DNA from: Taeniopygia guttata
Lineage: Eukaryota; Chordata; Aves; Passeriformes; Estrildidae
Direction of reading: 5' to 3'
NCBI RefSeq assembly: GCF_048771995.1
Contig: NC_133060.1
Span: 1,385,501 to 1,449,500 of the forward strand
Length of the DNA stretch: 64,000 nucleotides
Position 1 is the stretch's first letter; each line of letters opens with the position of its first letter. The notes under the pieces were generated by a model that was given only the letters and a program-made list of their open reading frames with translations, made no database searches and was not told the origin of the DNA. Below are positions 5,252 through 56,662 of the stretch, piece by piece. A program made the translations under genes and the position numbers.

Positions 5252-5427
5252 CTGCAGCCGCAGGTGCGCCGTGCAGCGCTCGGAGGCCACGGCCACGGCG
5301 CAGCCCTGGGGGGGCTCCTCCGAGACCCCCAAAATCCGCACCGAGCCCACCCCCCCCAAAACCCGCAGCAGAGCCGCCCCCCGGCAGGCGCGGGACCCCC
5401 AGAGCGGGTCCGGGCACTGCAGGAAAC
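5252..5427 (-). CDS. VARS1: VARS1 exon 26 of window: C-terminal domain, PQGCAVAVASERC
   Basis: Encodes the end of a split Cys codon and residues 956-1013: FLQCPDPLWGSRACRGAALL, then VRILGVSEEPPQGCAVAVAS and ERCTAHLRLQ. Human has [25 protein letters not shown]. Acceptor CCCCCAG|GT and donor CAG|GTGGGA. Six copies of its first ~35 bp with acceptor lie upstream in intron 25. Confidence 0.94.
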
Positions 5428-7590
5428 CTGGGGGGCAAAAAATGGGGGGGGTGAGGGTGGGACCCCCAAAATACCCTGAGATATGTAAAATATACACTGA
5501 GACCCCCAAAATTCACCCCAAAAAACACCCAGAGACCCCCAAAAAAACACCCTGAGACCCCCAAAAATCACCCTGAGACACCCAAAAAATACCCAAAAAC
5601 ACCCCAAAAAGAGCCAGGGACACCCAAAAAACACCCTTAGACCCCAAAAATTACCCAAAAATGCCCTGAGACACCCAAAAAATACCCAAAAATACCCAGA
5701 GACCCCTAAAAAACACCCAAAAAACACCCAGAGACGCCCAAAAAACACACTGAGACCCCCAAAAATCACCCTGAGACCCCCAAAATACACCGAGACCCCC
5801 AAAAACACCCCCAAAAACACCCAGGGACCCCCAGAGCGGGTCCGGGCACTGCAGGAAACCTGGGGGGGGAAATGGGGGGGGGGTTAGGGTGGGACCCCCA
5901 AAATTACACTGAGGTATGTAAAATATACACAGAGACCCCCAAAAATCACCCTGAGACCCCCAAAAAACACCCCAAAAAACACCCAGGGACCCCCAAAGTG
6001 GGTCCGGGCACTGCAGGAAACCTGGGGGGGGAAATGGGGGGGGGTTAGGGGGGGACCCCCAAAATTATACTGAGATATGTAAAATATACACAGAGACCCC
6101 CAAAAATCACCCCAAAAACACCCAGGGACCCCCAAAATTACACTGAGATACACTGAGACCCCCAAAAAATACCCCAAAATTACACTGAGACCCCCAAAAA
6201 TATACACAGAGACCCCCAAAAATCACCCCAAAATACCCTGAGACCCCCATAAAATACCCAGAGACCCCCAAAAAACACCCTGAGACCCCCAAATACACCC
6301 CAAAAATGCCCTGAGACCCCCAAAAAACACCCCCAAAATACCCAGAGACCCCCCCCAAAAAACACCCCAAAAATACACTGAGACCCCCCCAAATACAGCC
6401 CAAAAAAACATCCTGAGACACCCAAAAAATACCCCCAAAATACCCCGAGACCCCCAAAAAACACCCAAAAAGCAAACTGAGACCCCCAAAAATCACCCTG
6501 AGACCCCCAAAAATACACAGAGACCCCCAAAAACACCCCAAAAAACACCCAGAGACCCCCAAAGCGGGTCCGGGCACTGCAGGAAACCTGGGGGGGCAAA
6601 AAAAGGGGGGGTGAGGGTGGGATCCCCGAAATACACTGAGATATCCTGAGACCCCCAAAAATCACCCTGAGACCCCAAAAAAACCCCAAAAACCAACCTG
6701 AGACCCCCAAAAAATACCCCAAAAATCACCCTGAGACCCCCAAAAATACCCCAAAATACCCTGAGACCCCTAAAAAATACACTGAGACCCCCAAAAAATA
6801 CCCCAAAAATACACTGAGACCCCCAAAAAATAACCCAAAAATACCCAGAGACCCCCAAAAAACACCCCCAAAAAACACCCAGGGACCCCCAAAGTGGGTC
6901 CGGGCACTGCAGGAAACCTGGGGGGGCAAAAAAAGGGGGGGGGGGTTAGGGTGGGACCCCCAAAATTACCCCAAAAATACACTGAGATACCCTGAGACCC
7001 CCAAAAATTACCCCAAAAATACACTGAGATACCCTGAGACCCCCAAAAATACACCCCAAAATTACACTGAGACCCCCAAAAACACCCCCAAAAACACCCA
7101 GGGACCCCCAAAGTGGGTCCGGGCACTGCAGGAAACCTGGGGGGGAAATGGGGGGGGGGTTAGGGTGGGACCCCCAAAAATACCCCAAAATTACACTGAG
7201 ACATCCAAAAAATCACCCTGAGACCCCCAAATACACCCCAAAAATACACTGAGACCCCAAAAAAATACCCCAAAATTACACTGAGATATCCTGAGACCCC
7301 CAAAATCCCCGAGAGACCCCCAAAAAATACCCCAAAAGTACACTGAGACACCCAAAAAATACCCAAAAATATCCAGAGACCCCCAAAAAACACCCCCAAA
7401 AAACACCCAGGGACCCCCAGAGCGGGTCCGGGCACTGCAGGAAACCTGGGGGGGAAATGGGGGGGGGTTAGGGTGGGACCCCCAAATTACACTGAGACCC
7501 CCAAAAATACCCAGAGACCCCCAAAAAATACACTGAGATATCCTGAGACCCCCCAGAAACACCCAGAGACCCCCAAAAATACCCCAAAAA
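5428..7590 (-). repeat. Intron 25, exon-26-proximal: ACTGAGACCCCCAAAAATAC array with exon 26 copies
   Basis: Units ACACTGAGACCCCCAAAAAT and ACCCCAAAAATAC in higher-order blocks of about 160-570 bp, each ending in a copy of the exon 26 acceptor edge. Confidence 0.9.
5824..7445 (-). repeat. Six copies of the exon 26 5' edge plus acceptor
   Basis: Copies at about 5824-5859, 5986-6021, 6553-6587, 6883-6917, 7101-7136 and 7411-7445 hold 35-36 bp of exon 26 (FLQCPDPLWGS; three read FLQCPDPLWGS from GTGGGTCC variants) and the C-rich tract plus CCAG acceptor. Confidence 0.93.
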
Positions 7591-9596: not shown

Positions 9597-10639
9597 CTGG
9601 GGGGCACGGGGGGGTTTGGGGGGGCCGGGAGCCTCCAAAACCCTCCCAGGATCCCCCAAATCACCCCTGGGACCCCCCAAATCCTCCCAGCAGAACTGGG
9701 GGGCACGGGGGGGTTTGGGGGTGTCCAGGAGCCTCCAAATCCCCCCCAACCCCCCCCTGAGACCCCCAAAACCCCCCCAAATCCCCCTGGGACCCCCAAA
9801 TCCCTCCCAGGACCCCCCCAAATCCCCGGGGGACTCCCCAAATCCCTCCAAATCCCTCCTGGGACCCTCTAAATCCCCCCCAAATCCTCCCAAAACCCCC
9901 CCAAATCACCCCTGGAAATCCCAAAATGGCCCCAGGATCCCCCCAAATCACCCCTGGGATCCCACAAATCCCCCCAAATCCCCCCAAACCCCCCCTGAGC
10001 GCCCCAAATCCTCCCAAATCCTCCCTAAATCCCCCCAAAACCCCCCCAAATCCCTCCCAGGACCCCCCCAAATCCCCCCCAGGACCCCCCAAAGCCCTCC
10101 TGAGACCCCCCAAATCCCCCCAAAACCCCCCAAATCCCCCTGAAATCCCTCCCAGGACCCCCCCAAATCCCCGGGGACCCCCCAAATCAACCTGGGACTC
10201 CCCAAATCCCCCCAAATCCTCCCAAATCCCCCCCAAATCCCTCCTGAGACCCCAAAATCCCCCCAAAACCCCCCAAATCCCCCCTAAATCCCCCCAAATC
10301 CCCCCCAAATCCCTCCCAGGACCCCCCAAATCCCCCTGGGAGCCCCCAAATCCCCCCTGGGACCATAAAACCCCCCCTGGGACTCCCCAAATCCCCCCAA
10401 ATTCCCCCTGAGCCCCCAAATCCTCCCAAATCCCCCCAAATCCTCCCAAACCCCCCCAAAATCCCTCCAAAACCCACCCAAATCCCCCCTAAATCCCCCC
10501 AAATCCCTCCCAAAACCCCCCAAATGCCCCTTGGGACCCCAAAATTCCCCCTGAACCCCCTCCCAAACCCCCCCAAATCCCTCCCAGGACCCCCCAAATC
10601 CCCCCCAAATCCCCCCAAACCCCCGGGGGACCCCCGTAC
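9597..10639 (-). repeat. Intron 24: AAATCCCTCCCAGGACCCCC array
   Basis: Units of 20-30 bp, CCAAATCCCTCCCAGGACCC and CCCCAAATCCCCCC. One exon 25 edge copy is present near exon 25. Confidence 0.85.
9682..9695 (-). repeat. One short copy of the exon 25 5' edge plus acceptor
   Basis: Fourteen exon bases (TTCTGCTGGGAGGA, FCWE) with the acceptor and about 30 bp of intron (GGGGGGCACGGGGGGGTTTG on plus), 99 bp upstream of the real edge. Confidence 0.9.
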
Positions 10640-11628: not shown

Positions 11629-12570
11629 CTGGGGAGGGGGCGGCGGCTCAGGGACCCCAAAAACCCCAAAAACCCCCCAAAAATACCCCAAAAACAGCTC
11701 CGGGGACCCCAAAAACCCCCAGAGACCCCAAAAATACCCCAAAAATACCCCCAGGGACCCCAAAAACCCCCAAAACACCCCAAAAACACCCCAAAAACAC
11801 CCCAAAAACACCCCAAAAACAGCCCCGGGGACCCCAAAAACCCCAAAAACCCCCCAAAAATACCCTAAAAACCCCCAAAACACCCCAAAAATAACCCCGG
11901 GGACCCTAAAAACCCCAAAAACACCCCAAAAACACCCCAAAAACACCCCAAAAATACCCCCAGGGACCCCAAACACCCCCCTGGGACCCCAAAAACCCCC
12001 TAAAAGTGCCCAAAAAATACCCAAAAAATACCCAAAAAATACACAAAAAACAGCCCAAAAACACCCCAAAAATACCCCCAGGGACCCCAAAAACCACCCA
12101 GGGACCCCAAAAACAGCCCCGGGGACCCCAAAAATACTCCAAAAATACCCCCAGGGACCCCAAAAACCCCAAAAACCCCCCAAAAATACCCCCAGGGACC
12201 CCAAAAACCCCAAAAACACCCCAAAAATACCCCAAAAATACCCCAAAAACCCCCCGGGCCAGGATGGGCTTCACACACTCCTGGGGAGGGGGAGGTGGCT
12301 CAGGGACCCCAAAAACCCCAAAAACACCCCAAAAACCCCCCAAAAACACCCCAAAAACACCCCAAAAACAGCCCAAAAATACCCCCAGGGACCCCAAAAA
12401 CAGGCAAGGATCCTAAATAACCCCAGGGACCCCAAAAACCCCAAAAACACCCCAAAAATACCCCCAGGGACCCCAAAAGCTCCCAGAGACCCCAAAAACC
12501 ACCCGGGGACCGAAAAAACCCCCAAAACACCCCAAAAAAACCCCAAAAAAACCCCAAAAATACCCCAAAA
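11629..12570 (-). repeat. Intron 22, exon-23-proximal: CCCCAAAAACACCCCAAAAA array
   Basis: Units CACCCCAAAAACACCCCAAA and ACCCCCAGGGACCCCAAAAA. One exon 23 edge copy is included. Confidence 0.88.
12251..12280 (-). repeat. One copy of the exon 23 5' edge plus acceptor
   Basis: A 30-bp copy of the start of exon 23 (ECVKPILARG) with its CTCCCCAG acceptor and about 20 bp of intron, 652 bp upstream of the real edge. Confidence 0.92.
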
Positions 12571-14290: not shown

Positions 14291-15846
<1,556 letters not shown>

Positions 15847-15982
15847 CCAATGTCCCCAATGTCCCCAACGTCCCCAATGTCCCCAATGTCCCCAATGTCC
15901 CCGATGTCCCCAATGTCCCCAAATGTCCCCAATGTCCCCAACGTCCCCAATGTCCCCGATGTCCCCAAATGTCCCCAAGTAC

Positions 15983-16914: not shown

Positions 16915-17745
16915 TCAGGAGGGTTCATGGAAGTTTTGGGAGTCTCAGGGGAATTTTGGGGGGTTTTGGGGGATTTTGGGGTACCTGTCCGTCGGCGGGG
17001 GGTGAGGGGATTTTTGGGGGCTCTCAGGGGATTTTGGGGGGATTTTGGGGGATTTTGGGGGTACCTGTCTGTCGGGAGGGGGTCAGGGTAATTTGGGGTG
17101 TCCTGGGGGTGGTCTCAGAGGAATTTTGGGGGTACCTGTCCGTCGGGGGGGGTGAGGGGATTTTGGGGGTGTCCTGGGGGGTCCCGGGGGATTTGGGGGT
17201 ACCTGTCCATCAGGGGGGGGGTGAGGGGATTTTGGGGGCTCTTGGGGAGGTTTGGGGGGTCCCAGGGTTTTTGGGGGGTCAGGGTAATTTGGGGTGTCCC
17301 AGGGGGGTCTCGGGGAGGTTTTGGGGGGTCTCGGGGGGGTTTTGGGGGGTCTCAGGGAATTTTGGGGGGTCTCGGGGAGGTTTTGGGGGGTCTCGGGGGG
17401 TACCTGTCCGTCAGGGGGGCGGTGGATTTTGGTGGGTCTCAGGGGATTTTGGAGGGTCCCGGGGGGATTTTTTGGGGGTACCTGTCCGTCGGGGGGGGTG
17501 AGGGGATTTTGGGGTGTCCTGGGGGGTCCCGGGGGGATTTTGGGGGTACCTGTCCGTCGGGGGGGTCCCAGAGGATTTTGGGGGGTCTCAGGGGAATTTT
17601 GGGGGTACCTGTCCGTCGGGGGGGGTGAGGGGATTTTGGGGTGTCCTGGGGGGGTTTTGGGGGATTTTGGGGGTACCTGTCCGTCGGGGGAGGTGAGGGG
17701 ATTTTGGGGTGTCCCGGGAGGATTTTGGGGATTTTTTGGGGGTAC
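16915..17745 (-). repeat. Intron 21, exon-21-proximal: array of exon 21 donor copies
   Basis: Units of about 60-80 bp made of GGGGATTTTGGGGGTACCTG, TCCGTCGGGGGG and GGTGAGGGGATTTTGGGG. Confidence 0.9.
16985..17690 (-). repeat. Nine copies of the exon 21 3' edge plus donor
   Basis: Copies beginning at 16985, 17065, 17136, 17203, 17404, 17482, 17550, 17609 and 17677 keep CCCGACGGACAG|GTACC (PDGQ and donor). Variants include CAGACAG, TGGACAG and TGACGGACAG. Confidence 0.9.
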
Positions 17746-17873: not shown

Positions 17874-19800
17874 CTGGGGGCACACGGGGGGATTTGGGGT
17901 GATTTTGGGGGTTTTTTGGGGTGATTTTGGGGTTTTTTGGGGTTTTTTGGGGTTTTTTTGGGATTTTTTTGAAATTTTTTGGAGTTTTTTTGGGGCAGTT
18001 TTGGGGCGGTTTTGGATGATTTTAGGGTGGATTTGGGGTTTTTTTTTGGGTGGTTTTGGGGTTTTTAGGGGGATTTTGGGGTTTTTTGGGGTATTTTGGG
18101 GGTTTTTTTGGGGTATTTTGGGATTTTTCGGGTGTTTGTTTGGGGGGGTTTTGGGGCAGTTCTGGGGTGGATTTGGGTTCCTTGGTGTGTTCTGGGATGG
18201 TTTTAGGTCAGTTTTGGGGTGAATTTGGGGTTTTTTGGGGTTTTTTTGGGGTGATTTTGGGGTTTTGGGTTTTTTTTTGGGGTGATTTTGGGGTTTTTTG
18301 GGGGTTTTTTGGGGTTTTTTTGGGGCAGTTCTGGGATGGATTTGGGGTGGTTTTGGGGTGGATTTGGGGTGGTTTGGGGTGGTTTTGGAGAGATTTTGGG
18401 TTTTTTTGGGGTGATTTTGGGGTTTTGGGGGTTTTTTTGGGGTGATTTTGAGGCTTTTTTGGGGTTTTTTGGGGTTTTTTTGGGGCAGTTTTAGGGAGAT
18501 TCTGGAGCAGTTTTCGGCTGTTCTGGGATGGATTTGGGGTGGATTTGGGTTTTTTTGGGGTGATTTTGGGTTTTTTGGAATTTTTTGGAGTTCTTTTGGG
18601 GTTTTTTGGGGCGGTTTTGGGGAGATTCTGGAGCGGTTTTGGGCTGTTCTAGGATGGATTTGGGGTGGATTTGGGGTGGTTTTGGGGTTTTTTGGGGGCG
18701 ATTTGGGGGTTTTTGAAGTTTTTTGGGGTTTTTTGGGGTGATTTTGGGGTTTTTGGGGTATTTTTGGGGTGTTCTGGAGCCCCGTTCCAGACCTTATTGC
18801 AGAAGTGGCGGTACCCCAAAACCCGCCCCACGTCCAGGTTGATGTCCCGCCCTGGGGGCACACGGGGGGATTTGGGGTGATTTTGGGGTTTTTTTGGGGT
18901 GATTTTGGGGTTTTTTGGGTTTTTTCGGGTTTTTTGGGGATTTTTTTATGTTTTTTTGGGGATTTTTTGGGGCTTTTTTAAAGCTTTTTTGGGGTTTTTT
19001 TGGTGTTTTTTGGGGCAGTTATGGGACAGTTCTGGGATGGTTTTGGGTTCCTTGGTGTGTTCTGGGATGGATTTGGGGTGGTTTTGAGGTGATTTTGGGT
19101 TTTTTTGGGTTTTTTTGGGTTTTTTGGGGATTTTGGGGGGTTTTTTTGGAGTTTTTTTTGGGGCAGTTTTGGGGAGATTCTGGAGCGGTTTTGGGCTGTT
19201 CTGGGATGGATTTGGGGTGGATTTGGATGGTTTTAGGGTGAGTTTGGGTTTTTTTGGGGTGGTTTTGGGGTTTTTTTGGGGTGATTTTGGGGTATTTTGG
19301 GGTTTTTTGGGGTGTTTTTGGTGTTTATTTGGTGTTTTTTGGGGCAGTTTTGGGGAGATTCTGGAGCGGTTTTGGGCTGTTCTGGGATGGATTTGGGGTG
19401 GTTTTGGAGTGATTTTGGGGTTTTTTGGGGGCAATTTTGGGTTTTTGGAGTTTTTTGGGTTTTTTTGGGGTGATTTTGGGGTTTTTGGGGTATTTTTGGG
19501 GTGTTCTGGAGCCCCGTTCCAGACCTTGTTGCAGAAGTGGCGGTACCCCAAAACCCGCCCCACGTCCAGGTTGATGTCCCGCCCTGGGGGCACACGGGGA
19601 TTTGGGGTGATTTTGGGGTTTTTTGGGGGTTTTTTGGGGGGTTTTTTGGGGGGTTTTTTGGGAATTTTTGATGTTTTTTTGGGGCTTTTTTAAAGCTTTT
19701 TTGGGGTTTTTTTGGTGTTTTTTGGGGCAGTTATGGGGCAGTTCTGGGGTGGTTTTGGGTTCCTTGGTGTGTTCTGGGATGGATTTGGGGTGGTTTTGGA
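17874..19800 (-). repeat. Intron 20, exon-21-proximal: GGGGTGATTTTGGGGTTTTTT array with exon 21 copies
   Basis: Plus-strand units GGTGATTTTGGGGTTTTTTG and GTTCTGGGATGGATTTGGGG in higher-order blocks of about 730-900 bp, each ending in a 73-bp exon 21 copy. Confidence 0.88.
18779..19583 (-). repeat. Two 73-bp copies of the exon 21 5' half plus acceptor
   Basis: Copies at 18779-18851 and 19511-19583 encode [20 protein letters not shown] and VWNGA with the CCCCAG acceptor and about 30 bp of intron. They are 732 bp apart and the first differs by one synonymous base (AAT/AAC). These are the longest exon copies in the window. Confidence 0.95.
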
Positions 19801-22995: not shown

Positions 22996-24476
<1,481 letters not shown>

Positions 24477-29928: not shown

Positions 29929-29948
29929 AGTGTCCAGCACGTCCTGGT
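29929..29948 (-). repeat. One copy of the exon 16 5' edge plus acceptor
   Basis: A 20-bp copy of the first bases of exon 16 (QDVLDT) with its TCTCAG acceptor, about 500 bp upstream of the real edge inside the GAGTGACCACT array. Confidence 0.88.
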
Positions 29949-30703: not shown

Positions 30704-30858
30704 CTTGGCGCAGGCTGACCGCAGTGACCCCGAGTGACCAGTGAGTGACCCCTGAGTGACCACTGAGTGACCACTGAGTGACCCCTGCTGACCCCAGTGA
30801 CCCCGGCTGACCCTGAGTGACCCCGTGTGACCCCGGCTGACCTTGGCGCAGGCTGACC
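30704..30858 (-). repeat. Two copies of the exon 15 3' edge plus donor
   Basis: Copies at about 30704-30722 and 30842-30858 contain CAGCCTGCGCCAAG|GTCAGC (VSLRQ and donor), 138 bp apart. Confidence 0.88.
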
Positions 30859-31139: not shown

Positions 31140-32880
<1,741 letters not shown>

Positions 32881-34554: not shown

Positions 34555-34627
34555 CTGTGGGGCAGGTAAAGTGACACCTGTGTGTCACCTGTGTCACACC
34601 TGTCACACCTGTGTCACACCTGTGTCA

Positions 34628-35487
34628 CCACTGGGGCACGGTGCGGGGCTCCAAAATGTCCTTGGAGCGGCTGTGGGGCAGGTAAAGTGTCACCTGTGTC
34701 ACCTGTCACACCTGTGTCACACCTGTGTCACACCTGTCACACCTGTGTCACCACTGGGGCACCGCCCGGGGCTCCAAAATGTCCTTGGAGCGGCTGGGGA
34801 CAGGTAAAGTGTCACCTGAGTCACCTGAGTGTCACCTGTCACACCTGTGTCACACCTGTGTCACACCTGTGTCACCACTGGGGCACGGCCCGGGGCTCCA
34901 GGATGTCCTTGGAGCGGCTGTGGGGCAGGTAAAGGGACACCTGTGTCACCTGTGTGTCACCTGTGTCACACCTGAGTCACACCTGTGTCATCTACAGTCA
35001 CCCACTGTCACCTGTGTCACACCTGTGTCACCACTGGGGCACCGCGCGGGGCTCCAAAATGTCCTTGGAGCGGCTGTGGGGACACCTGAGTGTCACCTGT
35101 GTCACCTGTGTGTCACCTGTGTTACACCTGTGTGTCACCTGTGTCACCTGTCACACCTGTGTCACACCTGTGTCCCACCTGTGTCACACCTGAGTCACCT
35201 ACAGTCACCCACTGTCACCTGTGTCACACCTGTCACACCTGTGTCACACCTGTGTCACCACTGGGGCACCGCGCGGGGCTCCAAAATGTCCTTGGAGCGG
35301 CTGTGGGGCAGGTAAAGTCACACCTGTGTCACCTGTGTCACCTGTGTCACACCTGTGTCACACCTGTCCCACCTGTGTCACACCTGTGTCACACCTGTGT
35401 CACCTGTGTCACACCTGTGTCACACCTGTGTCACACCTGTGTCACCACTGGGGCACGGCCCGGGGCTCCAAAATGTCCTTGGAGCGG
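34628..35487 (-). repeat. Six copies of the exon 13 5' edge plus acceptor
   Basis: Copies at 34628-34670, 34750-34793, 34874-34917, 35030-35073, 35258-35300 and 35444-35487 carry about 43 bp of exon 13 (RSKDILEPRAVPQW, then a TGA) with the CCACAG acceptor; in the 34793 copy the acceptor region is shortened to CCCCAG. Confidence 0.93.
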
Positions 35488-35677: not shown

Positions 35678-35832
35678 CTGCACACAGGTACCACCATGGG
35701 GTCACCATTGTCACACCTGTGTCACACCTGAGTCACACCTGAGTCACACCTGTCCCACCTGTGTCACACCTGTCCCACCTGTGTCACACCTGTCCCACCT
35801 GTCTCACCTGCACACAGGTACCACCATGGGGT
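35678..35832 (-). repeat. Two copies of the exon 12 3' edge plus donor
   Basis: Copies at about 35678-35702 and 35808-35832 encode PMVVPVC and change the donor from GTAAGG to GTGAGA. They are 130 bp apart. Confidence 0.9.
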
Positions 35833-35977: not shown

Positions 35978-37675
35978 CTGAGAGTGACCAGTGAGTGACC
36001 AGTGAGTGACCGCTGAGTGACCACTGAGTGACCACAGTGACCACTGAGTGACCACAGTGACCACTGAGTGACCACAGTGACACTGAGTGTCCATCAGTGT
36101 CCGGCGGGCCTGGAACCGCGGCATGCCCTGAGAGTGACCAGTGAGTGACCGCTGAGTGACCACTGAGTGACCACTGAGTGACCACAGTGACACTGAGTGT
36201 CCATCAGCGCCCGGCGGGCCTGGAACCGCGGCATGCCCTGAGAGTGACCAGTGAGTGACCGCTGAGTGACCACTGAGTGACCACAGTGACCCTGAGTGAC
36301 CACTGAGTGACCACTGAGTGACCACAGTGACACTGAGTGTCCATCAGTGTCCGGCGGGCCTGGAACCGCGGCATGCCCTGGGAGTGACCAGTGAGTGACC
36401 GCTGAGTGACCACTGACCCATGGGAGTGACCACAGTGACCACAGTGACCCATGGGAGTGACCACTGAGTGACCACTGAGTGACCACTGACCCATGGGAGT
36501 GACCACTGAGTGACCACACTGACACTGAGTGACCATCAGTGTCCGGCGGGCCTGGAACCGCGGCATGCCCTGAGAGTGACCAGTGAGTGACCAGTGAGTG
36601 ACCGCTGAGTGACCAGTGAGTGACCACTGAGTGACCACTGAGTGACCACAGTGACACTGAGTGACCATCAGTGTCCGGCGGGCCTGGAACCGCGGCATGC
36701 CCTGCGAGTGACCAGTGAGTGACCAGTGAGTGACCAGTGAGTGACCACTGAGTGACCACAGTGACCACTGACCCATGGGAGTGACCACAGTGACCACTGA
36801 CCCATGGGAGTGACCACAGTGACCACAGTGACCACAGTGACCACTGAGTGTCCATCAGCGCCCGGCGGGCCTGGAACCGCGGCATGCCCTGGGAGTGACC
36901 AGTGAGTGACCACTGAGTGACCACTGAGTGACCACAGTGACACTGAGTGTCCATCAGTGTCCGGCGGGCCTGGAACCGCGGCATGCCCTGAGAGTGACCA
37001 GTGAGTGACCACTGAGTGACCACTGAGTGACCAACTGACCACTGAGTGACCACTGAGTGACCACAGTGACCACTGACCCATGGGAGTGACCACTGAGTGA
37101 CCACAGTGACACTGAGTGTCCATCAGCGTCCGGTGGGCCTGGAACCGCGGCATGCCCTGAGAGTGACCAGTGAGTGACCGCTGAGTGACCACTGAGTCAC
37201 CATTGACCCATGGGAGTGACCACAGTGACCACTGAGTGACACTGAGTGACACTGAGTGACCACTGAGTGACCAGTGAGTAGCCATTGAGTGACCCTGAGT
37301 GACCCTGAGTGACCACTGCCCCCTAAGTGACCATTGAGTGTCCAGTGAGTGACCCTGAGTGACCACTGAGTGACCACTGAGTGACCACTGAGTGACCACA
37401 GTGACCACTGACCCATGGGAGTGACCACTGAGTGACCACTGAGTGACCACAGTGACCACTGACCCATGGGAGTGACCACTGAGTGACCACTGAGTGACCA
37501 GAGTGACCACTGACATATGGGAGTGACTGCTGAGTGACCAAAGTGACCTGAGTGACCACTGCCCTCCGAGTGACACTGAGTGACCACAGTGACCACTGAG
37601 TGACCGCTGAGTGACCACTGAAGGACCACTGACATATGGGAGTGACCCGAGTGACCACTAAATGACCCCAGTGAC
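35978..37675 (-). repeat. Intron 11, exon-12-proximal: GAGTGACCACT array
   Basis: Units of 10-11 bp, GAGTGACCACT, with variants containing GACCCATGGGAGTGACCAC. The same unit family fills intron 15, 6 kb away. Eight exon 12 copies are embedded. Confidence 0.9.
36085..37156 (-). repeat. Eight copies of the exon 12 5' edge plus acceptor
   Basis: Copies with exon edge at 36127, 36237, 36377, 36569, 36701, 36888, 36987 and 37156 carry 36-43 bp of exon 12 (GMPRFQARRTLMDT) and the CCAG/TCAG acceptor. Sequence variants include CAGCGCCCGG and CGGTGG, so the copies have begun to diverge. Confidence 0.93.
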
Positions 37676-38655
37676 CCCTGATACAAACCAAAACCCCCCG
37701 AAACTGCCCTAAACCGCCCAACCCCCCCCAAATCTCACCCAAATCTCCCCCCAAACCCCCCAAAATGGCCCACCTGGAAGGGGGGTGGCACGTTGACCCC
37801 CAAACCACCCAAACCCCCCAAATCTCACCCAAAACCGCCCAAATCTCACCCAAAACGACCCAAACCCCCCCAAAACCCCCCAAATCTCCCCCAAACGCCC
37901 CCCAAATCCCCCCCAAATCTCCCCAAAATGCCCCACCTGGAAGGGGGACGGCACGTTGAACCCCCAAATCCCCCAAATCCCCCCAGATCTCCCCCAAAAT
38001 GACCCAAAATCCCCCAAAACCCCCCAAATCCCCCCAAATCTCCCCGAAAATGACCCAAATCTCCCCCAAAATGACCCAAAATCCCCCAAAATCCCCCAAA
38101 TCTCACCCAAATCTCCCTCAAATCTCCCCAAATCCCCCAAATCTCCCCCAAACCCCCCAAATCTCCCCCAAATCCCCCCCGAATCTCCCCCCAAATGACC
38201 CAAATCTCCCCCAAATCTCCCCCAAACTCCCGAAATCTCACCCAAAATGACCCAAAATCCCCCAAATCTCACCTAGATCTCCCCCAAACCCTCCAAATCT
38301 CCCCCCAAATCCCCCAAATCTCCCCAAAACCCCCCAAATCCCCCCAAAATGCCCCACCTGGAAGGGGGGCGGCACGTTGACCCCCAAATCCCCCCAAATC
38401 TCCCCCAAAATGACCCTAATCCCCCCAGACCCACCTGGAAGGGGGGCGGCACGTTGACCCCCCAAATCCCCCCCAAATCCCCCAAATCTCCCCCAAATCC
38501 CCCCCAAATCCCCCCAAAATGCCCAAATCTCACCCAAAATGACCGAAAATGACCCAAAACCCCCCAAATCTCACCCTCAGACACCCCAAATCTCACCCAA
38601 ACCCCCCAAACCCCCCAAATCCCCCCAAAATGACCCCAAACCCCCCCAGACCCAC
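37676..38655 (-). repeat. Intron 11, exon-11-proximal: CAAATCTCCCCCAAAATGACC array
   Basis: Units of about 10-20 bp, CCCAAATCTCCCCCAAAATG, with exon 11 edge copies embedded. Confidence 0.88.
37774..38458 (-). repeat. Four copies of the exon 11 3' edge plus donor
   Basis: Copies at about 37774-37796, 37937-37959, 38358-38381 and 38435-38458 encode VNVPPPFQ with a CAG|GTGGG donor. The first has one substitution (GGTGGC for GGCGGC) and the second one (GGGACG). Confidence 0.9.
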
Positions 38656-40673: not shown

Positions 40674-42526
40674 CTGCAGGTGAGAGAGAGGGCGGGGCTG
40701 TGGGGCGGGGCCGTGGGGCGGGGCCGTGGGGCGGGGCCGTGGGGCGGGGCCGTGGGGCCGGACACGCCCACCTGGCTCACCTGGCCCGGCCACGCCCCAC
40801 ACCGGGACCCCCCCCTTGGTGGGGATTTAGGGGCTCAGGTGGGGGTGGACACGCCCCACAGGTGTATAAGCCACGCCCACAGGTGTGTTAGCCCCGCCCC
40901 CAGGTGAGTTAGCCCCGCCCCCAGGTGTGTAAGCCACGCCCACAGGTGTGTTAGCCCCGCCCCCAGGTGTGTTAGCCCCGCCCCCAGGTGTGTTAACCAC
41001 GCCCCCAGGTGTGTTAGCCATGCCCCACAGGTGTGTTAGCCCCGCCCCCAGGTGTGTTAGCCCCGCCCACAGGTGTGTGTTAGCCCCGCCCACAGGTGTG
41101 TTTAGCCCCGCCCCCAGGTGTGTGTAACCACGCCCCCAGGTGTGTTAGCCCCGCCCACAGGTGTGTTTAGCCCCGCCCCCAGGTGTGTTACCTGGTACCG
41201 GGGGTCCTCGGGGTGCACGGCCACGCCCCCAGGTGTGTTAGCCACGCCCCCAGGTGTGTTAGCCCCGCCCCCAGGTGTGTTAGCCCCGCCCCAGGTGTGT
41301 TTAGCCCCGCCCCCAGGTGTGTAACCACGCCCACATGTGTGTTAGCCCCGCCCCCAGGTGTGTTTTAGACACGCCCCCAAGTGTGTTAGCCACGCCCCCA
41401 GGTGTGTTAGCCCCGCCCACAGGTGTGTAACCCCTACAGGTGTGTTTAGCCCCGCCCCCAGGTGTGTTAGCCCCGCCCCCAGGTGTGTAAGCCACGCCCC
41501 AGGTGTGTTTAGCCACGCCCATAGGTGTGTTAGCCACGCCCACAGGTGTGTTAGCCCCGCCCCCAGGTGTGTTAGCCCCGCCCCCAGGTGTGTTAGCCCC
41601 GCCCCCAGGTGTGTTAGCCCCGCCCCCAGGTGTGTAAGCCCCGCCCCCCAGGTGAGTTACCTGGTACCGGGGGTCCTCGGGGTGCACGGCCACGCCCACA
41701 GGTGTGTTTAGCCCCGCCCACAGGTGTGTAACCACGCCCACAGGTGTGTTAGCCCCGCCCCCAGGTGTGTTTAGCCCCGCCCACAGGTGTGTTAGCCCCG
41801 CCCCCAGGTGTGTTAGCCCCACCCACAGGTGTGTTAGCCCCGCCCCCAGGTGTGTAACCACGCCCCCCAGGTGAGCTCACCTGGTACCGGGGGTCCTCGG
41901 GGTGCACGGCCACGCCCCCAGGTGTGTTAACCACGCCCCCAGGTGTGTTTAACCCCACAGGTGTGTAACCACGCCCCCCAGGTGAGTTACCTGGTACCGG
42001 GGGTCCTCGGGGTGCACGGCCACGCCCCCAGGTGTGTTTAGCCCCGCCCCCAGGTGTGTTTAGCCACGCCCCCAGGTGTGTTAGCCCCGCCCCCAGGTGT
42101 GTTAGCCACACCCCCAGGTGTGTAACCACGCCCCCAGGTGTGTTAGCCACGCCCCCAGGTGTGTTACCTGGTACCGGGGGTCCTCGGGGTGCACGGCCAC
42201 GCCCCCAGGTGTGTTAGCCCCGCCCCCAGATGTGTAACCACGCCCCCCAGGTGAGCTCACCTGGTACCGGGGGTCCTCGGGGTGCACGGCCACGCCCCCA
42301 GGTGTGTTAGCCACGCCCCCAGGTGTGTAACCACGCCCCCAGGTGTGTTACCTGGTACCGGGGGTCCTCGGGGTGCACGGCCACGCCCACAGGTGTGTTA
42401 GCCCCGCCCTCACCTGGTACCGGGGGTCCTCGGGGTGCACGGCCACGCCCCCAGGTGTGTTAGCCCCGCCCCCAGGTGTGTTAGCCCCGCCCCCAGGTGT
42501 GTAACCACGCCCCCCAGGTGTGTTAC
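40674..42526 (-). repeat. Intron 9: CAGGTGTGTTAGCCCCGCCC array
   Basis: Units of 20-22 bp, CAGGTGTGTTAGCCCCGCCC with ACGCCC variants, from about 40850 to the exon 9 donor. Exon 9 edge copies become denser towards exon 9. The first ~170 bp beside exon 10 is a separate GGGGCGGGGCCGT array. Confidence 0.9.
41192..42451 (-). repeat. Eight copies of the exon 9 3' edge plus donor
   Basis: Copies starting at 41192, 41661, 41881, 41991, 42168, 42261, 42352 and 42414 hold about 33-38 bp encoding [11 protein letters not shown]. Their donors differ: GTAACA or GTAACT in five, GTGAGC at 41881 and 42261, and GTGAGG at 42414. The real donor is GTAACA. Confidence 0.92.
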
Positions 42527-42627
42527 CTGGTACCGGGGGTCCTCGGGGTGCACGGCCACGCCCTCGTCCCCCAACATCGTCTCCAGACGCGTCGTGGCCA
42601 CCACGACCTCGGGGGGCTCACCTGGGC
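42527..42627 (-). CDS. VARS1: VARS1 exon 9 of window: CP1 editing domain, [11 protein letters not shown]
   Basis: Encodes residues 324-356, including [20 protein letters not shown] and HPEDPRYQ. The TTRxETxxGD stretch is part of the editing pocket in ValRS, IleRS and LeuRS. The donor is CAG|GTAACA, weaker than several downstream decoys. Two in-frame acceptors lie 6 nt apart (CAG|GCCCAG|GT); the first is used here, and the second would drop Pro-Gly. Confidence 0.94.
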
Positions 42628-45489: not shown

Positions 45490-46360
45490 CTGGGGACCCC
45501 CAAAAACCCCTCAGGGACCCCCAAAAACCCCCCAAAAATCCCCCAAAAATACCCCAAAAAAACCAACTCCTTCTTCTCCACCTGGGGACCCCCAAAAACC
45601 CCTGAAAGACCCCCAAAAACACCCCAAAAATATCCCAAAAAAACCAACTCCTTCTTCTCCACCTGGGGACCCCCAAAAACCCCTGAGAGACCCCCAAAAA
45701 CACCCCAAAAATACCCAAAAATCCCCCAAAAAAACCAACTCCCCCTTCTCCACCTGGGGACCCCCAAAAACCCCTGAGAGACCCCCAAAAACACCCCAAA
45801 AATACCCCAAAAATACCCCAAAAAAACCAACTCCTTCTTCTCCACCTGGGGACCCCCAAAAACCCCTCAGGGACCCCCAAAAACACCCCAAAAATACCCA
45901 AAAATCCCCCAAAAAAACCAACTCCTTCTTCTCCACCTGGGGACCCCCAAAAACCCCTCAGGGACCCCCAAAAACACCCCAAAAATACCCCAAAAATCCC
46001 CAAAAAAAACCAACTCCTTCTTCTCCACCTGGGACCCCCAAAAACCCCTCAGGGACCCCCAAAACACCCCAAAAATACCCCAAAAAAACCAACTCCCCCT
46101 TCTCCACCTGGGGACCCCCAAAAACCCCTCAGGGACCCCCAAAAACACCCCAAAAACACCCCAAAAAAACCAACTCCTTCTTCTCCACCTGGGGACCCCC
46201 AAAAACCCCACAGAGACCCCCAAAAATACCCCAAAAATACCCCAAAAAAAACCCAAAAATACCCCCAAAAAACCAACTCCTTCTTCTCCACCTGGGAACC
46301 CCCAAAAACCCCTCAGGGACCCCCAAAAACACCCCAAAACACCCCAAAAATCCCCAAATT
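45490..46360 (-). repeat. Intron 7, exon-8-proximal: array of exon 8 acceptor copies
   Basis: About 90-bp units made of CCCCAAAAATACCCC, a piece of exon 8 and ACCTGGGGACCCCCAAAAAC. Confidence 0.9.
45563..46291 (-). repeat. Nine copies of the exon 8 5' edge plus acceptor
   Basis: Copies whose exon edge falls at 45581, 45662, 45753, 45845, 45936, 46028, 46107, 46198 and 46291 keep about 18 bp of exon 8 (VEKKEL; two read VEKGEL) and the CCCAG acceptor. Spacing is about 80-93 bp. Confidence 0.9.
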
Positions 46361-48451
46361 TTTAAGGGGTTTTTAGGGGTTGGTTCTGGATGTGTTTTTG
46401 GGGGATTTTTGGGGCTTTTTTGGGTCTGATTTTGAGTTGTTTTGGGGTGATTTTGGGGGTGTTTTGGGGGGATTTTTGGGGTGTTTTTGGGGAATGTTTT
46501 AGGGGGATTTTTGGGGGATTTTTGGGGGTTTTTAGGTGTTGGTTTTGGGGGTGTTTTGGGCTGGTTTGGGGTGATTTTGGGGGATTTTTGGGGGCTGATT
46601 TTGGGAGCTGCTTTAGGGAATTTTGGGATGTTTTTGGGGGTGTTTTGAGCTGTTTTTGGGGTGTTTTTGGAGGGATTTTTGGGGCTTTTTTTGGTCTGGT
46701 TTTTGAGCTGTTTTTGGGATATTTTTGGGGGTGATTTTGGGATATTTTTGGGGGTGTTTTTGGGGGCTGATTTTGGGAGCTGTTTTAGGGAATTTTAGGG
46801 TGATTTTGGGGCTGTTTTTGGACTGTTTTTGGGGGATATTTTAGGGGGATTTTTGGGTGTTTTTGGGGCTGTTTTTGGAGCGTTTTGGGGTGTTTTTGAG
46901 GGGGATGTTTTAAAGGGATTTTTGGGTGTTTTTGGGGTGGTTTGGGGACATTTTTAGGCGCTGGTTTTAGGCTGTTTTTGGGATATTTTTGTGCTGTTTT
47001 TGGGATATTTTTGGGGTGATTTTGGGATATTTTTGGGGTAATTTTGTGATATTTTTGGGGTGATTTTGGGATATTTTTGGGGATGTTTTTGGGATATTTT
47101 TGGGGAGATTTTGGGGCTGGTTTTGGGGCTGTTTTTGGAGTGTTTTGGGGTGTTTTGGGGGGATGTTTTAGGGGGATTTTGGGGTGTTTTTGGGGGATTT
47201 TTGGGGGGATTTTTGGGGTAATTTTGGGGTGTTTTTGGGGTGATTTTGGGTGTTTTTGGGTACCTCAATGTCCGAGATGGCCGAGCGCAGGGCGCAGCTC
47301 CAGTGCCCCGATCCCGGGGGTTTGGGGGCGATTTTGGGGGATTTTTGGGGGCTGATTTTGGGAGCTATTTGGGATATTTTGGGGCTGATCTTGGGGTGAT
47401 TTTGGCGTGGTTTTGGGGGTGATTTTGGGATATTTTTGGGATGATTTTGGGAGATTTTTGGGGTGATTTTGGGGCTGTTTCTGGGGCTGTTTTTCGAGTG
47501 TTTTGGGGCCGTTTTTGGAGTGTTTTGGGGTGTTTTGGGGGGATGTTTTAGGGGGATTTTTGGGTGTTTTTGGGGGATTTTTGGGGGATTTTTGGGGTGG
47601 TTTGGGGACATTTTTAGGCGCTGTTTCTGGGATATTTTTGGGGTAATTTTGGGATATTTTTGGGGTAATTTTGGGATATTTTTGGGGTGATTTGGGTACC
47701 TCAATGTCGGAGATGGCCGAGCGCAGGGCGCAGCTCCAGTGCCCCGATCCCGGGGGTTTGGGGGCGATTTTGGGGGATTTTTGGGGTGGTTTAGGGACAT
47801 TTTTATGCGCTGTTTCTGGGATATTTTGGGGCTGATTTTGGGATCTTTTTGGGGTGATTTCGGGTGTTTTTGGGTACCTCAATATCGGAGATGGCCGAGC
47901 GCAGGGCGCAGCTCCAGTGCCCCGATCCCGGGGGTTTGGGGGCGATTTTGGGGATTTTTGGGGTTTTTTTTGGTCTGGTTTTTGAGCTGTTTCTGGGATA
48001 TTTTGGGGTGATTTGGGGATATTTTTGGGGTGTTCTTGGGGGCTGTTTTTGGGAGCTACTTTAGGGAACATTGGGATGTTTTTGGGGGTGTTTTTGGGGT
48101 GATTTTGAGCTGTTTTTGGGATATTTTTGGGGAGATTTTGGGGCTGTTTTTGGGTCTGTTTTTGAGCGGGTTTTGGGGTCATTTTGGGGGTGGTTTTGGG
48201 GTGATTTTGGGGGCTGGTTTTAGGCTGTTTTTGGGGTAATTTTGGGCTATTTTTGGGGTAGTTTTGGAACGTTTTTAGGTGCTGGTTCTGGGATATTTTT
48301 GGGATGATTTTGGGATATTTTTGGGATGATTTTGGGATATTTTTGGGGTATTTTTGGGACATTTTTAGGCGCTGGTTCTGGGATATTTTAGGCGCTGGTT
48401 TTGGGATATTTTTGGGCTGGTTTTGGGGTGTTTTTGGGGTGATTTGGGTAC
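46361..48451 (-). repeat. Intron 7, exon-7-proximal: GGGATATTTTTGGGGTGATTTT array
   Basis: Plus-strand units GATTTTGGGATATTTTTGGG and GGCTGTTTTTGGGGTG. The strand composition is opposite to the other half of the same intron, switching at about 46360. Confidence 0.85.
47264..47920 (-). repeat. Three copies of the exon 7 3' edge plus donor
   Basis: 43-bp copies at 47264-47306, 47700-47742 and 47878-47920 encode [14 protein letters not shown] and keep the GAG|GTACCC donor. Upstream of each the sequence is ATCGGGGC instead of exon 7, with a shared CCCCGATCCCGGGGG block. Confidence 0.92.
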
Positions 48452-48571: not shown

Positions 48572-48649
48572 CTGGGGGTCCGGGCGGGTTTTAGGGGGGG
48601 CTCCGAGACCCCCGGGACCCCCCAGACCCACCCCAAGCCCCCCACTCAC
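48572..48649 (-). other. Intron 6: 78-bp intron, not expanded
   Basis: The only intron in the window without a tandem array. It runs from GTGAGT to CCCCAG and contains a possible branch site CCCTAAAAC about 25 bases before the acceptor. It shows what the compact introns of this gene may once have looked like. Confidence 0.92.
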
Positions 48650-51713: not shown

Positions 51714-52430
51714 CTGGGGTCAGAGGTCACGGGGTCAGTGGGGTCATTCAGGGGATTGGGGTCATTCAGGGGATTTGGGACATTGGGGTCATTGGGGGCA
51801 TTGGGGGTGTTGGGGTCATTGGGGTCATTAGGGGCATTGGGGACATTGGGGGCATTGGGGGCATTGGGGTCACTGGGGACATTGGGGACATTGGGGTCAT
51901 TGGGGTCATTGGGGACATTGGGGACATTGGGGTCATTGGGGTCATTGGGGTCATTGGGGGCATTGGGGTCATTGGGGTCATTGGGGTCACAGCGTGGTCA
52001 GCCCCCGCATCCGGTGCCTGCGGGTCACAGAGGTCACGGGGTCATTGGGGGTGTTGGGGACATTGGGGTCATTGGGGTCATTCACAGGATAGGGGTCACT
52101 GGGGGCGTTGGTGTCAATGGGGGCAATGGGGTCATTGGGGTCATTGGGGGGATTGGGGACATTGGGGGCGTTGGGGTCAATGGGGGGATTTGGGTCATTC
52201 AGGGGATTGGGGACATTGGGGGGACATTGGGGTCATTGGGGTCATTGGGGACATTGGGGACATTGGGGACATTGGGGGCATTGGGGTCACAGCGTGGTCA
52301 GCCCCCGCATCCGGTGCCTGGGGGTCACAAGGGTCACGGGGGTCAGTGGGGGGATTGGGGGGATTGGGGTCATTGGGGACATTGGGGTCATTTGGGGTCA
52401 TTGGGGATACTGCGGTCACTGGGATGGCCA
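51714..52430 (-). repeat. Intron 4, exon-5-proximal: GGGGTCATT/GGGGACATT 9-bp array
   Basis: 9-bp units GGGGTCATT and GGGGACATT, the same unit family as introns 21 and 22. Two exon 5 edge copies are embedded about 300 bp apart. Confidence 0.88.
51988..52317 (-). repeat. Two copies of the exon 5 5' edge plus acceptor
   Basis: 30-bp copies at 51988-52017 and 52288-52317 match the first 30 bases of exon 5 (HRMRGLTTL) and keep the CAG acceptor beside them. They lie 300 bp apart and 304 bp from the real edge. Confidence 0.9.
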
Positions 52431-53430
52431 CGCCCTGACCCCAGTGGTCATTCCAGACCCCAATGGTCACTCCCTGACCCCAGTGGTCACTCTGGTCACC
52501 CCCTGACCCCAGTGGTCACTCTGGTCACCCCCTGAGCCCAGTGGTCACTCTGGTCACTCACCAGCGGGTCAGCGTGTCCTGGATGGCCGCGGTCAGGGCG
52601 TGACCCAGGTGGAGGGTCCCAGTGGTCACTCTGGTCACCCCCTGAGCCCAGTGGTCACTCTGGTCACCCCCTGAGCCCAGTGGTCACTCTGGTCACCCCC
52701 TGAGCCCAGTGGTCACTCTGGTCACTCACCAGCGGGTCAGCGTGTCCTGGATGGCCGCGGTCAGGGCGTGACCCAGGTGGAGGGTCCCAGTGGTCACTCT
52801 GGTCACCCCCTGAGCCCAGTGGTCACTCTGGTCACCCCCTGAGCCCAGTGGTCACTCTGGTCACCCCCTGAGCCCAGTGGTCACTCTGGTCACTCACCAG
52901 CGGGTCAGCGTGTCCTGGATGGCCGCGGTCAGGGCGTGGCCCAGGTGGAGGGTCCCAGTGGTCACTCTGGTCACCCCCTGACCCCAGTGGTCACTCTGGT
53001 CACCCCCTGAGCCCAGTGGTCACTCTGGTCACCCCCTGAGCCCAGTGGTCACTCTGGTCACCCCCTGAGCCCAGTGGTCACTCTGGTCACTCACCAGCGG
53101 GTCAGCGTGTCCTGGATGGCCGCGGTCAGGGCGTGGCCCAGGTGGAGGGTCCCAGTGGTCACTCTGGTCACCCCCTGACCCCAGTGGTCACTCTGGTCAC
53201 CCCCTGACCCCAGTGGTCACTCTGGTCACCCCCTGAGCCCAGTGGTCACTCTGGTCACTCACCAGCGGGTCAGCGTGTCCTGGATGGCCGCGGTCAGGGC
53301 ATGGCCCAGGTGGAGGGTCCCAGTGGTCACTCTGGTCACCCCCTGAGCCCAGTGGTCACTCTGGTCACCCCCTGAGCCCAGTGGTCACTCTGGTCACCCC
53401 CTGAGCCCAGTGGTCACTCTGGTCACTCAC
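52431..53430 (-). repeat. Intron 4, exon-4-proximal: 168-bp higher-order array
   Basis: A 29-bp unit (CAGTGGTCACTCTGGTCACC plus CCTGAGCC) alternates with copies of the exon 4 3' edge. The higher-order period is 168 bp, with one 197-bp period equal to one extra 29-bp unit. Confidence 0.92.
52562..53321 (-). repeat. Five copies of the exon 4 3' edge, with HLGH motif and donor
   Basis: 59-bp copies at 52562, 52730, 52898, 53095 and 53263 each encode [19 protein letters not shown] and the start of Trp, followed by GTGAGTGACC. They differ from exon 4 by one or two bases, for example GGTCAC for GGCCAC in HLGH of the two most distal copies. Confidence 0.94.
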
Positions 53431-53555
53431 CAGCGGGTCAGCGTGTCCTGGATGGCCGCGGTCAGGGCGTGGCCCAGGTGGAGGGTCCCGGTCACGTTGG
53501 GGGGGGGGAGGCACATCACGAACACCCCCCGGGGGTTGGGGGTCTCCAGGGAGCG
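53431..53555 (-). CDS. VARS1: VARS1 exon 4 of window: HIGH-type ATP-binding signature
   Basis: Encodes residues 123-163 and two bases of a Trp codon. It contains [20 protein letters not shown]; the class I HIGH signature appears as HLGH (residues 148-151, bases 53469-53480), which binds ATP in the Rossmann fold. Acceptor CCCCAG|CGC, donor CTG|GTGAGT. Five copies of the last 59 bp, including HLGH and the donor, are repeated downstream, but only this copy extends into the 5' half of the exon. Confidence 0.96.
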
Positions 53556-54560: not shown

Positions 54561-56561
54561 GCCCCCCACTCACCCCGAATTCGGGGCGGAAGAACCCCTC
54601 CTTCTCCCACCAGCTGTACCAGCACCCCCAAAAGCCCCCCAGGACCCCCCAAAACTGCCCCAAATCCCCCCAGGACCCCCCAAAACTGCCCCAAATCCCC
54701 CCAAAACCGCCCCAAATCCCCCCAGGACCCCCCAAAGAAGCCCCCAGACCCCCCAAAACCCCACCAGGACCCCCCAAATCCCCCCAGATCTCCCCAACCC
54801 CCCCCCAAAACCGCCCCAAATCCCACCCAAATCCCCCCAGAACTGCCCCAAATCCCCCCAGGACCCCCCAAAGAAGCCCCCAGACCCCCCAAAGAAGCCC
54901 CCAGACCCCCCAAAAAAGTCCCCAGACCCTCCAAAACCCCCCCAGGACTGCCCCAAATCCCCCCCCAAATCCCCCCAAATCTCCACAGGACCCCCCAAAG
55001 AAGCCCCCAGACCCCCCAAAGAAGCCCCCAGACCCCCCAAAGAAGCCCCCAGACCCCCCAAATCCCCCCAGATCTCCCCTCAAATCCCCCCAGGACCCCC
55101 CAAATCCCACCCAAATCCCCCCAAATATCCCCAGGACCCCCCAAAGAAGCCCCCAGGACCCCCCAAATCCCCCCAGAACTGCCCCAAATCTCCCCAGGAC
55201 CCCCCAAAGAAGCCCCCAGACCCCCCAAGGAAGCCCCCAGACCCCCCAGGACCCCCACTCACCCCGAATTCGGGCCGGAAGAACCCCTCCTTCTCCCACC
55301 AGCTGTACCAGCACCCCCAAAACCCCCCCCAGGACCCCCCAAAGACCCCCCAAATCCCCCCAGAACTGCCCCAAATCCCCCCAGAACTGCCCCAAATCCC
55401 CCCAGGACCCCCCAAAACTGCCCAAAATCCCCCCAGAACTGCCCCAAATCTCCACAGGACCCCCCAAAGAAGCCCCCAGACCCCCCAAAGAAGCCCCCAG
55501 ACCCACTAAAACCCCCCCAAAACGCCCCAAACCCCCCAGATCTCCCCACAACCCCTCCAGAACTGCCCCAAAGACCCCCCAGGACCCCCCAAAACTGCCC
55601 CAAATCCCCCCAGAACTGCCCCAAATCTCCACAGGACCCCCCAAAGAAGCCCCCAGACCCCCCAAACCCCCCCCCAGGACCCCCCAAAGACCCCCCAAAA
55701 CCCCCCAACCCCCCCCAGATCTCCCCAAAACCCCCCCAAAACTGCCCCAAATCACCCCAGAACTGCCCCAAATCCCCCCAAAACTGCCCAAATCCCCCCC
55801 AAATCCCCCCAAAATCCCCCAAAATCCCCCCAGGACCCCCCAAAGAAGCCCCCAGACCCCCCAAAGAAGCCCCCAGACCCCCCAGGACCCCCACTCACCC
55901 CGAATTCGGGGCGGAAGAACCCCTCCTTCTCCCACCAGCTGTACCAGCACCCCCAAAACCCCCCCAGGACCCCCCAGAACTGCCCCAAATCCCCCCAGAA
56001 CTGCCCCAAATCCCCCCAGGACCCCCCAAAGAAGCCCCCAGACCCCCCAAAGAAGCCCCCAGACCCCCCAAAGAAGCCCCCAGACCCCCCAAAGAAGCCC
56101 CCAGACCCACTAAAACCCCCCCAGGACCCCCCAAATCCCCCCAGATCTCCCCGAACTCCCCCCAAATCCCCCCAGGACCCCCCAAATCCCCCCCAAATCC
56201 CCTCAAATCTCCACAGGACCCCCCAAAGAAGCCCCCAGACCCCCCAAAGAAGCCCCCAGACCCCCCAAATCTCCACAGGACCCCCCAAAACCCCCCCAGG
56301 ACCCCCCAAATCCTCCCCAAATCCCCCCAATTTTCCCCCAAAACCCCCCAAATCGCCCCCAAATCCCCCCAGATCTCCCCAAATCCCCCCAGAACTGCCC
56401 CAAACCCCCCCAGGACCCCCCAAATCCCCCCCAAATCCCCTCAAATCCCCCCAGGACCCCCCAAATCCCACCCAAATCCCCCCAAATCTCCACAGGACCC
56501 CCCAAAGAAGCCCCCAGACCCCCCAAAGAAGCCCCCAGACCCCCCAAAGCCCCCCACTCAC
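54561..56561 (-). repeat. Intron 3, exon-3-proximal half: higher-order array with exon 3 copies
   Basis: Units such as AAGAAGCCCCCAGACCCCCC and CAGAACTGCCCCAAATC are organised in blocks of about 640-690 bp, each ending in a copy of the 3' edge of exon 3. Confidence 0.85.
54574..55947 (-). repeat. Three copies of the exon 3 3' edge plus donor
   Basis: Copies at 54574-54622, 55263-55311 and 55899-55947 are 49 bp each and encode [16 protein letters not shown] followed by an intact GGG|GTGAGT donor. Spacings are 689, 636 and (to the real exon) 663 bp. All stop upstream at the same point, where real exon 3 continues with GCGGCC. Confidence 0.92.
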
Positions 56562-56662
56562 CCCGAATTCGGGCCGGAAGAACCCCTCCTTCTCCCACCA
56601 GCTGTACCAGGCCGCCTCCACGTAGCCGGGGCTGTAACTCTCGGGGAGGGGTCCCCCCACAT
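56562..56662 (-). CDS. VARS1: VARS1 exon 3 of window: start of catalytic core
   Basis: Encodes residues 90-122, [20 protein letters not shown] through [10 protein letters not shown], the conserved ValRS segment in which YxEAxWYxWWE precedes the HIGH region. The acceptor is CCCCAG|AT and the donor GGG|GTGAGT. Three copies of its last 49 bp with the donor lie in the downstream intron at 54574, 55263 and 55899. This is the complete exon because only here does the frame continue back through VEAAW. Confidence 0.95.

Follow-up and report, generated by a model that had tools for sequence, protein, structure and literature searches.

Exon stuttering has been described on the dot chromosomes of the chicken (115 genes and 236 introns, 190 on dot chromosomes; Hron et al., 2026; PMC12954441). 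In the parts of that paper available to us, the copied part of the exon includes the adjacent donor or acceptor splice site, the introns vary between birds, and repeat expansions are reported also in some other birds and in gerbils. Here we analyze the valyl-tRNA synthetase gene (VARS1, valine–tRNA ligase) of the zebra finch, Taeniopygia guttata, in a stretch of 64,000 nt (NCBI RefSeq assembly GCF_048771995.1, contig NC_133060.1, positions 1,385,501 to 1,449,500; the window), whose introns contain partial copies of the gene's own exon edges. We consider it very likely that this is exon stuttering in a songbird gene, and that the families of copies arose by local tandem duplication filtered by selection on the mRNA. 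This extends exon stuttering from the chicken to a songbird and to the gene of a housekeeping enzyme.

Judged by the available parts of Hron et al., the chicken genes and the VARS1 of the zebra finch share partial copies of exon edges that include the splice site, lie in the adjacent intron and form imperfect tandem arrays. In both, the source lies at the exon border and the coding exons are intact. The exon part measures 20–187 bp with a median of 36 in chicken and 14–73 nt with a median of 37 in VARS1, and the number of copies per expansion is 1–44 (median 4) and 1–10 (median 3), respectively. Unlike the chicken set, the zebra finch presents 19 families in a single gene. A related system is the gain of introns by tandem duplication across an intron-exon boundary, which carries the splice signals along (2016; PMC4974935, as far as available) and from which a new intron arises. 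In VARS1, by contrast, the 28 coding exons and the junctions between them match the annotated protein. Intronic minisatellites (variable number tandem repeats) are head-to-tail arrays of variable units. The unit of an ordinary intronic minisatellite is wholly intronic, whereas the 19 VARS1 families carry 14–73 nt of exon together with the junction; the VARS1 arrays without exon sequence, which make up the larger share, fit the ordinary type. The initial annotation of the window knew of no such description for a whole gene, a statement overtaken by the published chicken work. The kind is thus already known, and breakpoint homology, the order of the decoy splice sites and codon history are additions from one gene. 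The available main text of Hron et al. contains none of the terms 'microhomolog', 'synonymous' or 'VARS', and we met in it no account of donor copies preceding acceptor copies or of older codons within copies. In open-licence PubMed Central it was the sole paper found for exon stuttering or for intron repeats of zebra finch dot chromosomes; the MicroFinder paper (PMC13192246) mentions neither VARS nor introns in its available parts.

The first clue to the identity of the gene came from pieces of a class I tRNA synthetase in translated non-repetitive islands of the minus strand. In a protein search, the best match among the 120 listed of 7,990 matches was T. guttata valine–tRNA ligase X5 (P0001). 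The gene occupies positions 800–60591 of the minus strand, with 28 exons and 27 GT-AG introns. The joined exons translate to residues 119–1203 of P0001, identical letter for letter, and each of the 27 exon-exon junctions has a single GT-AG solution; the coding exons are therefore intact. P0001 itself is built from these 28 real exons, without extra junctions at the copies. Judged by its coding sequence, the gene is zebra finch VARS1, or else one that cannot be told apart from it across residues 119–1203. No exons for residues 1–117 were found within the 64,000-nt window; the longest sequence record behind the annotated X5 protein has 4.88 Mb. Listed from high to low coordinates, exons 1–7 lie at 60591-60413, 59719-59632, 56662-56562, 53555-53431, 51713-51549, 48731-48650 and 48571-48452; exons 8–14 at 45489-45381, 42627-42527, 40673-40583, 38780-38656, 35977-35874, 34554-34396 and 32467-32377; exons 15–21 at 31139-31034, 29450-29380, 25574-25449, 23557-23453, 21720-21652, 20714-20636 and 17873-17746; and exons 22–28 at 16138-15983, 11628-11523, 10806-10640, 9596-9485, 5427-5252, 3001-2852 and 868-800 (stop codon included). 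The initial annotation had likewise counted 28 exons, and its span of 5252–56662 covers exons 3–26 and omits exons 1, 2, 27 and 28; at the low end the gene reaches position 800, and at the high end it extends beyond 60591.

Following the screen of Hron et al., we compared the exons with all introns using blastn-short without dust filtering, with five dinucleotide-preserving shuffles as control. At 42.1 bits or more, 60 sense matches were found in adjacent introns, and none in other introns or in antisense orientation. At 36 bits there were 72 adjacent sense matches, one adjacent antisense, two distant sense and two distant antisense, and at 30 bits the corresponding numbers were 89, three, 37 and six. 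The five sets of shuffled introns gave no match at 42.1 bits and two in total at 36 bits, the best reaching 38.2 bits; judged by these shuffles, the distant matches added at lower thresholds are mostly noise. Among the 72 adjacent sense matches at 36 bits, 37 were 3′ edges downstream of their exon and 33 were 5′ edges upstream. These 70 lie within 2 nt of the exon border at the expected edge, and the remaining two are a G-rich match in exon 1 and a 3′-edge copy that stops 4 nt short.

A second scan, anchored on the 27 donor and 27 acceptor junctions and run against all introns, detected 84 partial exon copies (48 donor, 36 acceptor) from 19 exon edges of 16 exons. Donor-edge copies were found only downstream of their own exon and acceptor-edge copies only upstream, with none on the other adjacent side. 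The GT is kept in 48 of 48 donor copies and the AG in 36 of 36 acceptor copies, while 81 of 3,058 positions in the exon parts depart from the exon sequence. Most families have coincident or nearly coincident inner ends; at least two inner ends occur in the exon 13 donor family. Four distal matches of 14–16 nt were to a CAGGTGA-like array. Exact matches of at least 14 nt gave the same picture: 71 edge matches in adjacent introns all lie on the expected side (37 3′ edges downstream, 34 5′ edges upstream), and no whole-exon copy was found among the exact exon-intron matches. The 22 interior sense matches in adjacent introns consist of 11 pieces of edge copies and 11 array-like words of exons 1, 22, 26 and 27. 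Exact matches in distant introns (36 sense, 13 antisense) and two adjacent antisense ones were short (14–18 nt) and mostly array-like; three of these sit at the acceptor edge of exon 9.

Much of what the initial annotation had said of the copies was borne out, namely that they exist, span the exon-intron boundary, keep the splice site, lie on the side expected for local tandem duplication and share nearly the same inner start in most families. Its figures of about 90 copies from 17 exons, with a short exon part of 13–73 bp, are replaced by those of the rescan. It went too far in placing copies around nearly every exon: 35 of the 54 exon edges had no copy at the threshold of the junction-anchored scan, and the stretches between each real junction and its farthest copy together make up 19,076 of 56,532 intron bases (34%). 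Its title, which had the introns built from junction copies, is likewise too strong, as arrays without exon part form the larger share.

All 19 families lie on the minus strand. The donor edges of exons 3 and 4 have three copies (54574..55947) and five copies (52562..53321, mostly with a 168-bp period), followed by two at the exon 5 acceptor (51988..52317), three at the exon 7 donor (47264..47920) and nine at the exon 8 acceptor (45563..46291). At the exon 9 donor (41192..42450) there are eight copies, each identical to the exon at 37 of 37 positions. The exon 11 donor has four copies (37774..38459). Both edges of exon 12 are copied, the acceptor eight times (36085..37156), with two copies carrying a likely ancestral Ala codon for P0001 residue 556, and the donor twice (35678..35832). 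Exon 13 has six acceptor copies (34627..35487), whose distinct differences from the exon are six synonymous and one nonsynonymous, and ten donor copies (32886..34306). Further along the gene, there are two copies at the exon 15 donor (30704..30858), one at the exon 16 acceptor (29929..29948), two with a 73-nt exon part at the exon 21 acceptor (18779..19583), nine with a 14–18-nt exon part at the exon 21 donor (16985..17690), two at the exon 22 donor (14461..15846), one at the exon 23 acceptor (12251..12280), one short copy of 15 nt at the exon 25 acceptor (9681..9695) and six at the exon 26 acceptor (5824..7445). At the exon 9 donor (41192-42627) the real site reads GTAACA, three of the eight copies read GTGAG, and the real flank resembles the neighboring array unit. 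The junction looks as if the array had rewritten the flank up to the GT.

In each of the 19 families the repeat unit extends across the splice junction into the exon. Each family was probably founded by a local tandem duplication with one breakpoint in the intron and one in the exon. A few bases shared by exon and array would often have set its position, and the family would then have grown together with the array. A duplication over a donor would leave the full exon first, with the exon tail and a second donor behind it, and one over an acceptor would place a partial copy ahead of the exon. The geometry of tandem duplication thus accounts for donor copies lying downstream and acceptor copies upstream. 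In the 15 of 19 families whose array parent could be traced, homology at the inner breakpoint has a mean of 4.6 nt and a median of 3 nt, compared with a null mean of 0.58, and eight of the 15 families reach p < 0.05. Such homology is plain for GGGCGTGG in exon 9 and for CACTC in exon 12. Together, these observations support the earlier reading of local tandem duplication in many separate families.

Junction-spanning duplications would persist because the mRNA is unchanged: the full exon keeps both splice sites and the extra copy carries only one. Whole-exon duplications would alter the protein, and selection would remove them. As the exon-touching duplications that leave the mRNA unchanged are those over one junction, the survivors would span junctions. 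If units with the observed spacings fell at random on the exons, 68% would be expected to be partial, 23% whole and 9% internal. The lack of any whole-exon case among the 19 families has a probability of 0.0015, and selection on the mRNA would be the simplest reason for it. A smaller value of 2e-4, calculated for all 19 being partial, was set aside as too strict because exon 1 holds a short coding repeat.

The copied splice sites are hereafter called decoys. Scored by consensus count, 45 of 48 decoy donors equal or surpass the real site, 10 of them surpassing it. In all six introns that hold both kinds, every donor decoy precedes every acceptor decoy. Decoys alone therefore cannot frame a pseudoexon, and the risk they pose is exon extension. 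Among the 19 nearest extensions, nine shift the frame and ten meet a stop codon. The spliceosome would presumably choose the intact exon through exon definition. The locus raises the testable question of how splicing chooses one site among many near-identical ones.

Several points weigh against duplication filtered by selection. Breakpoint homology has p ≥ 0.05 in seven of the 15 families, five of them above 0.1 and one without homology, and the test uses the best copy per family. The expected share of whole-exon cases is based on unit sizes taken from the spacings of present copies, not of founding units. Given the relatedness of the copies in each family, counts made over copies lack independence. 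Duplication inside exons may not be wholly absent, the short coding repeat of exon 1 being one possible case. On the side of splicing, decoy donors are not weaker than real donors. The nearest decoy would give an exon of workable size (170–301 nt) in ten of 19 families, among them families of exons 9, 12, 13 and 21, the other nine yielding exons of 346–1106 nt, and six of the 19 nearest extensions are in frame and free of stops. Finally, the predicted VARS1 of the Savannah sparrow (Passerculus sandwichensis, P0002) contains exon extensions of the decoy type. We keep our confidence despite the weaker value of 0.0015, since the side rule, the locality of the copies and the published parallel carry it.

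The initial annotation had proposed that splice junctions seed minisatellite growth. On this view, arrays would be started by the splice signal itself or by the chromatin or RNA structure associated with it. The presence of families at 19 of 54 exon edges speaks for such seeding; we nevertheless regard it as improbable. Overlaying exon positions on the output of a tandem repeat finder (TRF) showed that arrays cover 97.6% of intron bases and 19.7% of exons, and also occupy the sequence past the stop codon (7-757), so that no junction is needed to start an array. As many as 26 of the 27 introns are 92–100% TRF array, and local tandem repeats thus dominate the introns as in avian exon stuttering, though most array sequence is without exon part. 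Local duplication filtered by selection on the mRNA is sufficient to explain the position of the copies, and the 35 edges without a detectable copy tell further against seeding. Seeding also predicts donor ends that are richer in G than acceptor ends, and GC skew in the first and last ~300 bp is not clearly different: among the 25 introns of at least 700 bp, the first exceeds the last in 16 (Wilcoxon P = 0.11). Over the window (1-64000), GC skew changes sign between introns, and the strand that carries G4-like motifs, coding or opposite, differs from intron to intron. The sole intron without tandem arrays (0% TRF) is intron 6 (48572-48649), which is 78 bp long and has no copies of either junction. 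Intron 18 (21721-23452) consists mostly of arrayed CAGGTGACC-like units that each resemble a donor site and contain no exon sequence.

We then compared the copies with the exons codon by codon. The distinct differences comprise 23 synonymous and 12 nonsynonymous changes, with 10.3 synonymous changes expected when matched for base change and CpG. With the exon 13 acceptor family left aside, 17 of 28 are synonymous, compared with 8.1 expected (P = 4e-5). Freely decaying intron copies should ignore codons. On the simplest reading, a large part of the difference originated in the exon, under selection, and copying or overwriting took place at various times, so that the copies may be snapshots of an evolving exon. 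Exon-to-intron copying or exchange appears to have happened repeatedly, as the copies preserve different states of the exon. Most nonsynonymous changes look private to the copies, as neutral decay would give. The 12 still include a D-to-V change at P0001 residue 559, present in two copies of exon 12, that looks more like a shifted breakpoint than a point mutation. Synonymous changes, for which the zebra finch exon and its copies were compared, carry no polarity.

Residue 556 of P0001 is encoded by ACA (Thr) in the exon; among the eight exon 12 acceptor copies, five have ACA, one ACG and two GCG (Ala). This residue is Ala in 22 of 23 other aligned sequences. For the other seven of eight zebra-finch-derived residues in copied edges, every covering copy carries the new residue, so that most copies either postdate the divergence from Lonchura or were overwritten. 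Tentatively, and with the odds somewhat against it, exon edges and intronic copies may exchange sequence continually, so that the introns would be a running archive of coding history. We found no sign that write-back from array to exon raises protein change at copied edges. Among ungapped, well-aligned residues, 19 of the 207 in copied edges differ between zebra finch and Lonchura, compared with 83 of the other 790 (51 of 516 in the remaining edges and 32 of 274 elsewhere). Fisher's test gives P = 0.70, or P = 0.84 when restricted to derived changes. Sequence exchange between coding exons and intron arrays on such chromosomes is a further testable question. If it is continual, the arrays would amount to a natural competition assay, with up to 10 extra near-identical splice sites per exon that differ mainly in position and exon context.

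The synonymous excess could also be expected if the copies were functional splice elements under selection, with roles in recursive splicing, in the use of alternative exon ends or in adjusting protein level through unproductive isoforms. Such a role would fit the conservation of GT or AG in 84 of 84 copies in the face of the differences elsewhere in the exon parts (P = 0.011 if independent), and the extensions in the Savannah sparrow model. However, the intact dinucleotides and the synonymous excess would both follow if the copies were snapshots of a constrained exon. The copies vary irregularly in number and spacing, the frequent stops and frame shifts of the nearest extensions fit poorly with function, and the zebra finch protein as annotated is built from the 28 real exons. 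We consider a functional role slightly less probable still than seeding. Stuttering of the repeats by the assembler is highly improbable: the sequence is very repetitive, strongly skewed and difficult to assemble, yet copies within families differ in point changes and spacing, three codon states occur at one residue within one array, and a like structure was verified in raw nanopore reads for chicken PHF8, according to the available parts of Hron et al. (PMC12954441).

We also inspected the VARS1 models of other species. Internal repeats occur in seven of 23 bird models (19 names, two perhaps one species) and in two of 97 others, a set that includes records that may hold a bird. Clear exon-edge repeats are confined to the Savannah sparrow, with five repeated exon-edge segments, and Ammospiza, with one; the exon 27 repeat of Lonchura is uncertain, and those of the remaining models are short or of low complexity. 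In the Savannah sparrow prediction, the repeated end of exon 18 is joined via four residues that resemble read-through of a donor, and the repeated segments of this model are probably annotated stuttered decoys, which counts in favor of exon stuttering. Most of the bird models come from automatic prediction, and four carry a low-quality label (Ammospiza, Cuculus, Camarhynchus and Ara). As the Savannah sparrow model suggests, caution is needed, since automatic annotation can build repeated exon edges into predicted proteins. At the exon 22 donor, the breakpoints of Savannah sparrow and zebra finch agree within about one codon, a single coincidence that we did not use. A breakpoint in exon 23 common to Ammospiza and zebra finch was withdrawn, because the Ammospiza copy extends past it. 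A protein search with the C-terminal region added one more named bird record (Coturnix), which was not used.

Array-like sequence was also seen inside coding exons. Exons 1, 2 and 3 are wholly covered by TRF arrays, and exon 1 (60413-60591) encodes the tandem repeat LGVPGGPD-LGVPGGP, possibly a case of stuttering inside coding sequence. Interior words of exon 26 (5252-5427) and exon 27 (2852-3001) are identical to intron array motifs (GGATTTTGGGGGTCT, GGGAGATTTGGGGGG), which could be array-like drift or conversion inside coding sequence. Both words, GGATTTTGGGGGTCT and GGGAGATTTGGGGGG, also occur in distant introns.

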